Origin: Rivularia sp. PCC 7116
GTDB taxonomy: Bacteria > Cyanobacteriota > Cyanobacteriia > Cyanobacteriales > Nostocaceae
DNA: 64,000 nt
Direction of reading: 5' to 3'
Assembly: GCF_000316665.1 (NCBI RefSeq)
Contig: NC_019678.1
Location: 4,030,001-4,094,000 of the forward strand
The notes below the pieces were generated by a model, which did not search any database, was not told where the DNA came from, and was given only the letters and a program-made list of their open reading frames with translations. Below are positions 10,042-18,766 of the stretch, piece by piece; within the stretch, counting starts at the first letter, position 1; each line of letters starts with the position of its first letter. The position numbers were made by a program, and so were the translations under genes.

Positions 10042-10130
10042 GTTGAAACTCAAATTAATCCCTACTAGGGATTGAAACAAACTAATCCCTCGTGAGTAAG
10101 CTTTGTTAAAAGGTTGAAACTCAAATTAAT
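10042..10130 (+). CRISPR. Orphan CRISPR remnant: one full repeat, one spacer, one half repeat
   Basis: A 37-base repeat (10042-10078) begins GTTGAAACTCAAATTAAT, continues with the inner palindrome ATCCCTACTAGGGAT and ends ATTGAAAC, the usual cyanobacterial repeat terminus. A 34-base spacer follows (10079-10112), then 18 bases identical to the repeat start (10113-10130), after which the sequence runs into TTAACCT heptamers, so the second repeat is truncated. No cas gene is present in the window. Orientation is set by the ATTGAAAC end. Confidence 0.75.
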
Positions 10131-15944: not shown

Positions 15945-16612
15945 TCTGCTTTATTAGGTTTTTTACATTTATTCCAGTAAGCAGCTCCACCAATCAAAGA
16001 CATCCCAAAAATTGGAATATACCAAAGAAAAGCTGTATTCTTGCTTGAAGGTAATGGCAGCTTGTCTCCATCTAGATAAGCTTTTGTCTCTGATTTATTA
16101 TTTTTGTAAATATAAGTAATTGAGCTATTTCTCAAACTTAAATACCTATTATTAATATCCGCAATTTCATAACCTTTAGCAACTTTATCTATTTGGTAAA
16201 TATTCCGCATTGTTCTAATAGGATTGATTCTCCCTGTAGCGGGAATTAATTTGGCTTTTTTGCTCTCCAAATCTTTTAATCGCTCAAATTCTCCAATAAT
16301 ATCTTGTTCTAAATCAACATCAGATTTTTTCAAAGCATAAACTTCACCATACACACGATACCCACCTAAGTCATGACATTTACCGGACTTTAAAAACCTA
16401 TTTCTAGTTGTCATTCTGGGACCATCCGATTTTTCAACCACCATAAATAAATAATCTGGATATTTATCAATATTAGTGATTTTGAAACAATAGCTTACAC
16501 GACTTTCATCCCGAGGTAAAACATCTGCTCGCGCTAAAGATGGCTCAAATAAAGTTAATAAAATTCCTAAAGGGAGTATCGATATTAAACTCTGCTTGCG
16601 AAATATTCTCAT
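15941..16612 (-). CDS. Exported/anchored hypothetical protein
   Basis: A 223-residue protein with an N-terminal signal peptide (hydrophobic ISILPLGILLTLFEPSLARA, probable cut after SLARA) and a C-terminal membrane helix (TAFLWYIPIFGMSLIGGAAY) followed by KCKKPNKAE. The extracytoplasmic part begins VLPRDESRVSYCFKITNIDK and has few recognisable features, with C at about 42 and 78 that may form a disulfide. It overlaps the downstream polytopic membrane gene by four bases, implying a shared function. Family unknown to me. Confidence 0.65.
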   Translation of the reverse strand: MRIFRKQSLISILPLGILLTLFEPSLARADVLPRDESRVSYCFKITNIDKYPDYLFMVVEKSDGPRMTTRNRFLKSGKCHDLGGYRVYGEVYALKKSDVDLEQDIIGEFERLKDLESKKAKLIPATGRINPIRTMRNIYQIDKVAKGYEIADINNRYLSLRNSSITYIYKNNKSETKAYLDGDKLPLPSSKNTAFLWYIPIFGMSLIGGAAYWNKCKKPNKAE

Positions 16613-16920
16613 GTTATTAGATTAGAAAAACTACGTATTATTTATAACTTATCTATAATCAAGAAAAAACGAAGACTTTCATACCTTGCTTTTGCTCTTC
16701 AAAATGTAGAGTGTGTTATCGCCGAGTGTAACGCACCATCCACCGAACAAGGTGCAAAAAAACGTTTATAACGCATTTACCTTGCCATTGTAATATTGTA
16801 TGTTACACTTGTAGTGAGGTAGTAGTAAAGCTTCGCTATAGCTCGGGTTCAGTATGCCCGACTGGTGCGCCGAGCAATGCTTTGAGCGTATACCGCGAAC
16901 AACTCGAAACTATTTCAACA

Positions 16921-16991
16921 GCATAATTAGCTCAGAGGAAGAGCGTTAGACTTGAAATCTAAAAGACGTAGGTTCAACTCCTACATTGTGC
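16921..16991 (+). tRNA. tRNA-like gene, anticodon TGA (Ser codon), class I shape
   Basis: All arms fold: acceptor GCATAAT/ATTGTGC (one G-T pair), D-arm GCTC/GAGC, anticodon arm TTAGA-CTTGAAA-TCTAA, T-arm GTAGG-TTCAACT-CCTAC. The anticodon is TGA, but the variable loop is only five bases, whereas bacterial tRNA-Ser has a long variable arm needed by seryl-tRNA synthetase. CCA is not encoded. Charging and function are therefore uncertain; it may be a tRNA of accessory-array type. Confidence 0.75.
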
Positions 16992-16993
16992 CC

Positions 16994-17068
16994 CGGAAGT
17001 TAGCTCATCGGCAGAGCAATAGACTCATAATCTATCGGTAGCAGGTTCGATTCCTGCACTTTCAACCA
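16994..17068 (+). tRNA. tRNA-Met-like gene (CAT) with C1-A72 mismatch and encoded CCA
   Basis: Acceptor CGGAAGT/ACTTTCA leaves a C1-A72 mismatch, the hallmark of bacterial initiator tRNA; A73 and an encoded CCA follow. D-arm GCTC/GAGC, anticodon arm ATAGA-CTCATAA-TCTAT (anticodon CAT), variable loop CGGTA, T-arm GCAGG-TTCGATT-CCTGC. The three consecutive G-C pairs of the initiator anticodon stem are missing, so initiator and elongator features are mixed. It starts two bases after the preceding tRNA. Confidence 0.8.
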
Positions 17069-17073
17069 ACCTA

Positions 17074-17114
17074 CTAACCTGAAAAGTTAGTCAAACCCTA
17101 CCCTGTCACGGTAG
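17074..17114 (+). ncRNA. Two free-standing anticodon-arm-like hairpins (Phe GAA, Asp GTC)
   Basis: CTAAC-CTGAAAA-GTTAG (17074-17090) and CTACC-CTGTCAC-GGTAG (17098-17114) each have a perfect 5-bp stem and a 7-base loop with T33 and A37. Their loops are what tRNA-Phe(GAA) and tRNA-Asp(GTC) carry. Only seven bases separate them, so D-arm, T-arm and acceptor stem are absent. Seen in sequence; any RNA product is inferred. Confidence 0.5.
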
Positions 17115-17145
17115 ATAAAAAATCCGCAAATAACGCTCCTAAGCT

Positions 17146-17162
17146 CCTTGTTGGAAACAAGG
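17146..17162 (+). ncRNA. Anticodon-arm-like hairpin (Ser GGA)
   Basis: CCTTG-TTGGAAA-CAAGG: perfect 5-bp stem, 7-base loop with T33, GGA at 34-36 and A37. The homologous hairpin in the second cassette copy (18019-18035) keeps the stem but has a different loop, reading TGG (Pro). Confidence 0.45.
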
Positions 17163-17563
17163 TTCCCGATGGTTGATTTATCGACACAGGGGAGCGCAAT
17201 CGGAATGCTTTCCTAGAAAGCAAACTCCGCGATGCGAGTGCTTGCAACCGTTCGTTACCTGGTAAAAGAGCGGGAGCTATGGTGAAGTAGCCAGAGCAAT
17301 TGTTTTTTCTTTAACTTGAGTATGGGCTTCGCTAGCTGAATTCAGTTTTTCTATGGAAATTCTGGAAAGATGAAGCGAACCTCATATTTGAAAATTGTTT
17401 GATAATTTGAGATTACCTACGGGTATTTTTGTATTTGATAGCAGTTTTCTTAATCCAGTTATCGCAGAAGCTTTTGCCCGCTATGGAATCATATCAGCAC
17501 TTACATTTGCGGAGTTTTTAATTTTACCTCACCCCGTCCTCACGGACACCCCTCTCCTTGCTA

Positions 17564-17712
17564 AGGATACTGCTGGCGAATGGTATGTCTCACCCCTCAC
17601 CCGAACAAATTAATAGGGATTTTGAGCTATTAACAGGAGTGCGATCGCACTCCTCAAACCCTTATTTTTCGGTGATTAAGGGGTCTTACCCTTGATTCGC
17701 CAGCAGTATCCT
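17564..17712. repeat. 149-bp inverted-repeat element between the two cassette copies
   Basis: AGGATACTGCTGGCGAAT (17564-17581) and its perfect 18-base complement (17695-17712) bracket the segment. At its centre a 20-base palindrome with GCGATCGC (HIP1) in the middle occupies 17635-17654, flanked by AGGAGT/ACTCCT. No coding frame. Confidence 0.65.
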
Positions 17713-17917
17713 TGCTAAGGAGATGGGAATAAGAAAAAATAAATTTTGATATTACCCTTTAGCCTTTTTGACCTTTAACCTTTAACCTTCACTATGCTAC
17801 ATTTGTAGCGAGATAGTAATTAAGCCACAATACTATAGCTCGGGTTCTGGATACCCGACTGGTGCGCGAAGAAATGCTTTGAGCGTATGCCGTTAAGTAC
17901 TTGAAACTATTTCAACA

Positions 17918-17991
17918 GCCTAATTAGCTCAGTGGTTGAGCAATCGGTGAATCGCCGATAAACGTAGGTTCAAATCCTGCATTGGGCACCA
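17918..17991 (+). tRNA. tRNA-like gene with abnormal anticodon loop (AAT if standard register)
   Basis: Acceptor GCCTAAT/ATTGGGC, A73 and encoded CCA, D-arm GCTC/GAGC, T-arm GTAGG-TTCAAAT-CCTGC all fold well. The anticodon stem is ATCGG/CCGAT with loop TGAATCG: position 33 is G instead of the invariant U and position 37 is C instead of a purine, so normal decoding is doubtful. Could be a decaying tRNA or one with a non-decoding role. Confidence 0.6.
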
Positions 17992-18018
17992 ATAACACCC
18001 CCGCCCTGGGTATGGGCA

Positions 18019-18035
18019 CCTTGTTTGGGACAAGG
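18019..18035 (+). ncRNA. Anticodon-arm-like hairpin (Pro TGG)
   Basis: CCTTG-TTTGGGA-CAAGG: perfect 5-bp stem, 7-base loop with T33, TGG at 34-36 and G37, the purine that tRNA-Pro characteristically has. Same stem as the Ser(GGA)-like hairpin in copy 1. Confidence 0.45.
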
Positions 18036-18387
18036 CTACATAAATTTAGAGGAGACTAACAGCAGCGTGTTGCTGTCAGTCTGCAAACTCCGCGATGTGA
18101 ATGTTTGCAACCGTTCGTTACCTAGTAACTTTCGGAAGCTATGGTGAAGAAGCCAGAGCAATTACCTCTCTCTTTAACTTGAGTATGTCCTTTGTTTGCT
18201 GCATTCAGTTTTTTTCGGGAATCCTGGAAAGGTACTACAAACGCCATATTTGAGCGCTGGAATGAAGATTTTGGGTTATCTTTGGGTACCCTGAGATTGG
18301 ACAACAGTTCTCTTAATCCAGTTGTTGAGACGTTTTTGCCCGCAACGGAACCTATACGCATTTACATTTGCGGAGTTTTTAATTATA

Positions 18388-18766
18388 TGGGCATTGGGGA
18401 ATTGGGGAATTGGGAATTGGGCATGGGGCATGGGGCATTGGTAATTGCTAACCTTCTACCTCCACTATCCTTATCCCATTGCCGAATTTGTATTCCTAAT
18501 GTAGTATATATATTACATAGGGCTGTTGATTGGAGAATGGTAATTCTAAGCAAGCAAAACCGTAGCGCTAGAGTTCAAAACAAGTAAACCACTGTCAATG
18601 CTTGTCGGTTAAGGCTAGATCCTCCCTAACCCTCCTTAAAAAGGAGGGAACTAAGCCCCCTTTACAAGGGGGTTTGGGGGATCTAAAAAATTTTGGATTT
18701 CTTAACCGAGCAGTATTGAAACCACTGTTTCCCATTACCAATTACCAATTACCTATTAAATTATTT
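18388..18766. repeat. Intergenic repeats before the slipin gene
   Basis: GGGAATT and GGGGCAT heptamers (18393-18445), a CCTCCTTAAAAAGGAGG hairpin with GGGGG/CCCCC runs near 18630-18685, and AATTACC repeats at 18735-18755. An open frame runs through from 18602 into the slipin gene but is built from these repeats and is not believed. Confidence 0.65.

Follow-up and report, generated by a model that had tools for sequence, protein, structure and literature searches.

We report that a 64,000-nt stretch of DNA (the window) from the 8.73 Mb genome of the cyanobacterium Rivularia sp. PCC 7116 (contig NC_019678.1, positions 4,030,001 to 4,094,000) contains two tandem copies of one predicted structured non-coding RNA, of ~0.70 and ~0.57 kb as judged from their probable ends, which displays anticodon arms on a conserved scaffold and lies next to a gene coding for a slipin-like SPFH/Band-7 protein. 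Each unit consists of an extended -10 promoter, from which it would be transcribed, a covarying 5' domain, one to three tRNA-like domains, additional anticodon arms with 5-bp stems and 7-nt loops, and a covarying 3' domain, which in both units is followed by a T run (Table 1). The two copies are 70-94% identical over their common ungapped blocks and 76% identical over the 3' core. Together with the tRNA-like genes predicted by ARAGORN, this bears out the duplicated and diverged cassette of a preliminary description of the window, made from the bare letters. To our knowledge, no known RNA pairs a conserved scaffold with fast-changing arms that remain proper anticodon arms, and searches of an open-access library gave no description of an RNA combining hypervariable anticodon arms, a covarying scaffold and a slipin partner. 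In layout the RNA is like GOLLD and in its tRNA mimicry like YrlA, but it fails the model-match tests for both.

A covarying RNA scaffold that bears anticodon arms

The preliminary description had reported four perfect 5-bp/7-nt hairpins with T33 and a purine at position 37 (R37), with loops reading Phe(GAA), Asp(GTC), Ser(GGA) and Pro(TGG). All four are present in the sequence, and the Ser- and Pro-like ones have indeed one common stem, CCTTG, at the matching place of each unit and differ in their loops. Their excess over chance also holds, as three such hairpins stand in 17069-17180 where 0.01 are expected, a number reached by none of 2000 shuffles. Over the whole of 16799-18387 there are seven, namely the four arms, two anticodon arms of tRNA-like domains and, at 17392, one hairpin of the 3' domain. 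In 300 dinucleotide shuffles the number averaged 0.24 and never exceeded 3, and on these counts a chance origin of the arms is rejected. The + strand of the whole window holds 30 perfect hairpins with the same features. One correction to the earlier picture concerns the tRNA-like domain of unit 2, whose anticodon arm, ATCGG[TGAATCG]CCGAT at 17943, has no U33. Moreover, the hairpins exist but are not free: they are parts of a far longer conserved RNA.

Of 291 genomes belonging to the order, BLASTN matches the 3' part of unit 1 in 21 and unit 2 in 39. A search with a covariance model built on the 5' domain (R1, 53 sequences) detects the RNA in 42 of the 291 genomes, as well as in 19 of 386 genomes of a phylum sample, where every match falls within the same order. 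A DNA pattern retrieved 60 named genome loci, of which 47 pass the profile; all 47 are labelled as cyanobacteria, one of them coming from an Acaryochloridaceae metagenome-assembled genome, while the other 13, along with two viral contigs, fail the profile and were dropped. The extended -10 (TG plus TA...T) keeps its position in 66 of 73 units.

In the 5' domain, whose structure includes 15 pairs from RNAalifold and 7 added by eye, 94.6% of the cells are paired and the covariation score is 0.221, against 0.154 in shuffled and at most 0.071 in slid controls. In the 3' domain, 95.7% are paired and 34 of 59 pairs have changed on both sides, against 14.9 in shuffled alignments (none of 500 being as high) and at most 18 in slid ones, a comparison in which the structure is favoured over the slid controls because RNAalifold derived it from that same alignment. 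This 3' alignment has 40 sequences: the pattern extracted 54 of 86 units, 52 after removal of near-copies, of which five short sequences and seven resembling retained ones were left out. Most of the extra arms are preceded by an H-type pseudoknot, with its second stem directly adjoining the arm in the manner of a D-stem. For pseudoknot type A (33 sequences, from 37 rows of which four irregular ones, window unit 1 among them, were left out), 97.2% of the cells are paired and 4 pairs have changed on both sides against 1.1 in shuffles; for type B (22 sequences) the values are 95.8%, and 6 against 1.5. In neither type are further pair types more numerous than in shuffles, and unit 1 of the window has no clear pseudoknot ahead of its arm. 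Compensatory changes thus go beyond the shuffled and slid controls, as expected of a structured non-coding RNA, and at the level of sequence each unit is shown to be a conserved, covarying structured RNA.

Other identities were considered and set aside. In the RNA units of the window, only tRNA reaches its Rfam gathering score (RF00005, with 69.9, 61.5 and 55.5 bits for the embedded domains against a cut-off of 29), and sub-threshold matches, such as those to Plastid-ycf2, YrlA, mir-31 and the S15 leader, were put down to cross-recognition of tRNA or to chance. A protein-coding region does not fit, as open reading frames (ORFs) of at least 60 aa inside the units are short, while paired bases covary. 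Concerning a phage or plasmid element, BLASTN gave one plasmid record, matching the stretch between the units, and two phage records, matching the tRNA-like part. In one relative (L082:3856-3947), a truncated extra 5' domain stands directly ahead of a full unit.

We surveyed 86 distinct units for arms at two positions sought by pattern, HP-A, with CTAC[CT] or a near variant as its stem, and HP-B, with CCTTG or a similar stem. HP-A was found in 44 units and HP-B in 29, the two occurring together only in unit 1 of the window. HP-A loops have U33 in 40 of 44 cases and R37 in all 44, and 34 are identical to a genuine cyanobacterial tRNA loop, the genuine set being 70 loops from the tRNAs of two whole genomes, with arrays included and embedded tRNA-like domains excluded. 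Nine of the 18 distinct HP-A loops are genuine, where three nulls give 3.6, 3.9 and 5.5 (P 0.004, 0.002 and 0.03); these correspond to Asp, Gly(UCC), Lys, Cys, Tyr, Ser(GGA), Ser(GCU), Arg(UCU) and Pro(UGG), and all nine also occur in the tRNAs of the window's own genome. All 29 HP-B loops have U33, and 27 of them R37. Outside the training set of the model, eight of eight fetched divergent loci have a U33/R37 arm after the tRNA-like domains (picked by eye), two of these carrying the genuine Glu loop CTTTCAC. In units with three tRNA-like domains, the third resembles an initiator tRNA by its start, CGCGG(G/A)ATAGAGCAG, and mostly bears another anticodon. Relatives therefore do not show ordinary complete tRNAs or unconserved hairpins at these places; they keep the arms, with constant stems, mostly U33 and R37, and switching loops that are often genuine. 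This strongly supports the anticodon-arm mimicry proposed in the preliminary description: by their sequences, the extra arms are anticodon arms and not stray hairpins.

The identity of these arms is highly changeable. One kind of tRNA-like 2 body carries CAT, TAT, TGT, GTT, TAG, CTT, GAT, CGT, CAG and more. When the comparison is limited to loops with U33 and R37 (33 of 54 distinct tRNA-like 1 and 52 of 74 distinct tRNA-like 2), 22% of the triplet sites of tRNA-like 2 differ at 1.1% body divergence (15 pairs) and 27% at 5.7% (97 pairs), the triplets being different in 47% and 49% of the pairs, respectively. For tRNA-like 1, 17% of the triplet sites differ at 1.4% body divergence (4 pairs) and 12.5% at 5.4% (128 pairs), and for HP-A 55% differ at 9.6% divergence of the 3' core (113 pairs from 42 units). 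As the pairs are not independent, these figures are descriptions and not tests. Some HP-A changes involve the whole loop, position 38 included, such as CTTCCAA to CTGTCAC. The conservation of anticodon identity and of U33 at orthologous positions that would be expected of tRNAs is not seen (U33 in 38 of 56 tRNA-like 1 and 57 of 76 tRNA-like 2 loops). Across the aligned units, loop triplets are thus shown to change much faster than the scaffold, with swapping over short evolutionary distances.

The slipin gene and its operator-like sites

The neighbours of the RNA vary from locus to locus, except for slipin. This gene is among the three nearest downstream ORFs in 33 of the 47 named loci, always on the strand of the RNA, and at least a piece of it lies within the available DNA of 38. 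The window copy matches Pfam PF01145 Band_7 (2.4e-31, 109.6 bits against a cut-off of 23.6) and stomatin in the PDB (7.9e-22), and PADLOC gave no hit that would mark it as a defence gene. Among the 291 genomes, 42 have the RNA (E up to 0.001), 43 have slipin (N-terminal part, E up to 1e-10) and 39 have both (Fisher 3e-40). Three have the RNA alone (G045, G108 and G175) and four slipin alone, of which one (G131) has a diverged RNA visible by eye (L271) and the other three are weak matches near 1e-15. Genome comparison thus shows the RNA and slipin to be linked. The idea that the RNA decays where slipin is missing is weak: ARAGORN finds no tRNA in two of the three RNA-only genomes, but the same is true of 2/40 and 3/55 units elsewhere. 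Six loci have a YdeI-like gene no more than two genes past the RNA; the single one tested belongs to OmdA, a 'bacteriocin-protection' family.

The Anabaena repressor TrcR binds the promoter of alr0739 and represses alr0739 together with the slipin gene alr0740, as well as rtcB and the trn array of 26 tRNAs, whose footprinted TrcR site is TGTAGTAT (PMC10272220). We found TGTAGTAT within 900 nt before slipin in 24 of 33 stretches (32 relatives with a slipin of more than 480 aa in the locus, plus the window), the background per 900 nt being 0.11 for the named loci taken together and 0.04 for the window. In 19 of the 24 it stands 17-20 nt after a GCRGAG resembling the 3' end of the RNA. Unit 1 of the window shares TACACTTGTA with the trcR operator quoted in PMC10272220, and the genome itself has one copy of TGTAGTAT ~250 nt ahead of an rtcB gene and three copies ~0.5 kb ahead of a tRNA array. 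Operator-like sites of the TrcR type before slipin are therefore shown by these sequences, and slipin would be a putative member of a TrcR regulon. The suggested tie to cyanobacterial tRNA arrays is thus retained in the form of common TrcR-type operator sites, but not in that of a relic of such an array. The authors of PMC10272220 state that they excluded long non-coding RNAs from their transcriptome analysis; another study reports co-expression in the same system, with a caution about erythromycin by its authors (PMC9938897).

The rtcB in question (L261; G000:C1:3553350-3555068) matches its family in two segments separated by ~500 bp (profile 2-87 and 49-426), a pattern that an intein or other insert would give, and TGTAGTAT lies ~250 bp upstream. 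The tRNA array (L163, L130; G000:C1:6855400-6856885) is small and has one 6-nt anticodon loop, the three TGTAGTAT cores preceding it within ~40 bp. Two odd tRNA-like genes, Asn att and Leu taa, with near-equal acceptor stems, lie ~1 kb apart elsewhere in the genome (L167 and L168; G000:C1 near 8119683 and 8120731).

A possible decoy for anticodon nucleases, and other explanations

We tentatively propose, as the most likely of the readings considered, although we hold it to be slightly less than probable, that the RNA acts as a decoy or competitor for enzymes attacking anticodon loops, sparing real tRNAs during tRNA damage. The 5' and 3' domains would form a scaffold that displays the tRNA-like domains and the additional anticodon arms; the final arm is usually seated on the pseudoknot, like the D-arm/anticodon-arm half of a tRNA. 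The displayed loops would bind, and perhaps be cut by, anticodon nucleases that we presume to be of bacteriocin or toxin type. By a putative contact with the RNA, slipin could hold it at the membrane, where imported toxins arrive. The RNA stands beside a regulon whose Anabaena counterpart includes RtcB together with a spare tRNA array. The arms keep their anticodon-like form through changes of identity, as would suit a target that recognises anticodon loops and itself shifts with time, and a decoy for anticodon-cutting toxins would account both for the scaffold-held switching arms and for a regulon of broken or scarce tRNA. There is a precedent for the idea in the tRNA-like YrlA of an RNA-repair operon, proposed as a possible competitive inhibitor of an anticodon nuclease (PMC7790460).

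Several observations weigh against such a decoy. In the Hughes study, YrlA itself was uncleaved (PMC7790460). By pattern, 14 of 86 units have neither extra arm, and a ninth divergent locus (L256) shows none after its tRNA-like domains. HP-B loops are mostly not genuine (identical in 7 of 29 units and 2 of 10 distinct loops, which is not significant), the commonest, TTAGGGA, being what would be an A34 proline anticodon. Loops without U33 are present in 18 of 56 tRNA-like 1 and 19 of 76 tRNA-like 2, for both domains the matches to genuine loops do not exceed all of the nulls, and seven of nine initiator-like loops have no R37. The four closest HP-A pairs (2.9% core divergence) have equal triplets. 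Near the promoter of the RNA itself, only one of 73 units has an exact operator core, as does L267 when judged by eye. Finally, the Pfam search of slipin gave only Band_7 and no RNA-binding domain, and its predicted structure is poor (pLDDT 61).

A rather unlikely alternative is a cassette of tRNA genes, from which RNase P and others would release working, perhaps specialised tRNAs, with the flanks as leader and trailer RNAs. A CCA end is encoded by 29 of 54 distinct tRNA-like 1 and 45 of 74 tRNA-like 2, all of these with the T-loop TTCRA, and ARAGORN places the two domains of unit 1 next to each other without a spacer. Nevertheless, near-identical bodies bear different anticodons; A34 anticodons, 6-nt loops and loops missing U33 recur; and the flanking domains and arms outside the tRNAs themselves are conserved. 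Serine tRNAs are expected to have a long variable arm, but domain 1 of unit 1, whose loop CTTGAAA is that of the genome's own Ser(UGA) tRNA, has a body without one. It is also possible, but we think improbable, that the RNA titrates or senses tRNA-modifying enzymes, synthetases or damaged tRNAs and in this way controls slipin or translation. Position 37 often tracks position 36 as in real tRNAs (by eye, G37 after G36 and A37 after A36 or U36), and U36, which t6A enzymes prefer, is kept in 42 of the 52 tRNA-like 2 loops with U33 and R37. Slipin lies downstream of the RNA, yet it has its own operator-like site past the 3' end of the RNA, and a YdeI-like gene may stand between the two. As for a decaying relic of a long tRNA array, tandem tRNA-like genes and the degenerate loops of some copies are what it would leave, but the constant stems and the conserved promoter speak against it, and we consider this origin very improbable, given the covariation of the 5' and 3' domains and of the pseudoknot and the association of the locus with one slipin gene. 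The interpretation given in the preliminary description, which had offered decoys, sponges and relics side by side, is thus partly supported.

Comparison with known systems raises a further candidate, a cyanobacterial analogue of GOLLD/ROOL, that is, an oligomer- or cage-forming RNA with tRNA-like linkers as cargo or spacers. GOLLD is likewise a large RNA of similar size, with a conserved 3' region and tRNAs that sometimes sit in the linker between this and the 5' region (PMC12286853). However, the Rfam models of GOLLD and ROOL have no match up to E 5 in 16600-18700 or up to E 1 in seven relatives, and the present RNA adjoins slipin in cyanobacterial contigs, has extra arms mostly borne by pseudoknots, and swaps its anticodons, which such an analogue leaves unexplained. 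Regarding a phage location as in GOLLD, the two phage records match the tRNA-like 2 stretch only, and the two viral pattern matches fail the profile, in viral contigs scanned with one exact pattern and without a search for prophage genes. We judge this analogue rather unlikely. YrlA, of rsr-yrlBA-rtcBA operons, shares with our RNA the mimicry of tRNA, the setting of RNA repair and the suggested competition with an anticodon nuclease (PMC7790460). Its model is, in contrast, 114 positions long, and RF02553 stays below its cut-off of 69 bits, giving 22.8-29.8 bits over the tRNA-like stretches of three of seven relatives. The Anabaena trn operon (L-array) and TrcR regulon resemble our locus by the operator TGTAGTAT, a co-regulated slipin, a YdeI homologue and rtcB, but trn is an array of tRNAs, and a structured RNA with swapped arms goes unmentioned in the available part of PMC10272220. 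By gene context alone, the locus may also be likened to PaFlo8 of the Pseudomonas aeruginosa rtc locus, an SPFH gene beside RNA-repair genes, for which the available portion of PMC13086221 mentions no RNA partner.

Returning to the decoy, we suggest with less confidence than for decoy action as such that it may be an evolvable one, whose arms are swapped to match the nucleases met, which slipin anchors at the membrane, and which is deployed together with an RNA ligase and spare tRNAs. This would represent an RNA-based arm of immunity against ribotoxins. More generally, a decoy would be a bacterial means to absorb tRNA-cutting toxins and would explain the presence of slipin in a cyanobacterial translational-stress regulon. 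It would also open to experiment the question of what purpose GOLLD and other large RNAs with embedded tRNAs serve.

Coordinates and minor features

Table 1. Features of the two RNA units and the adjoining slipin gene (window positions)
Feature	Positions	Strand	Details and basis
Unit 1 extended -10 promoter	16801..16809	+	TGTTACACT, hexamer TACACT 16804-16809; sequence
Unit 1 5' structured domain	16816..16920	+	covariation in alignment A1 (53 sequences); R1 match
Unit 1 tRNA-like domain 1 (tga)	16921..16994	+	anticodon arm 16946-16962; ARAGORN, Rfam
Unit 1 tRNA-like domain 2 (cat)	16994..17068	+	loop CTCATAA, arm at 17019, CCA encoded; ARAGORN, Rfam
Unit 1 extra arm, Phe GAA	17074..17090	+	CTAAC[CTGAAAA]GTTAG; loop identical to genuine Phe loop
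Unit 1 HP-A arm, Asp GTC	17098..17114	+	CTACC[CTGTCAC]GGTAG; loop identical to genuine Asp loop
Unit 1 HP-B arm, Ser GGA	17146..17162	+	CCTTG[TTGGAAA]CAAGG; genuine loop is CTGGAAA
Unit 1 3' structured domain	17222..17517	+	ends paired, AAACTCCGC/GCGGAGTTT, then T run; A5 covariation
Unit 2 extended -10 promoter	17795..17803	+	TGCTACATT, hexamer TACATT 17798-17803; sequence
Unit 2 5' structured domain	17810..17917	+	R1 match, covariation
Unit 2 tRNA-like domain (aat)	17918..17991	+	loop TGAATCG, no U33; CCA encoded; ARAGORN, Rfam
Unit 2 H-type pseudoknot, D-arm-like position ahead of next arm	17997..18018	+	ACCC/GGGT, GCCC/GGGC; sequence, covariation in A4 (22 sequences)
Unit 2 HP-B arm, Pro UGG	18019..18035	+	CCTTG[TTTGGGA]CAAGG; loop identical to genuine Pro(UGG) loop
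Unit 2 3' structured domain	18085..18378	+	A5 covariation, sequence
TrcR-type operator core between RNA and slipin gene	18500..18507	+	TGTAGTAT; motif from PMC10272220
Slipin-like SPFH/Band-7 gene, 534 aa	18767..20371	+	start codon chosen by eye; Pfam, PDB, linkage

Between the two units, 17549-17727 contains a 33-nt inverted repeat (88%) around a 113-nt stretch, within which ~17565-17648 has an 80% match to a Calothrix plasmid; this is probably a small repeat or mobile element lying between the RNA copies. Farther upstream in the window, 10042-10078 is a single match to the CRISPR-DR5 repeat (44.6 bits).

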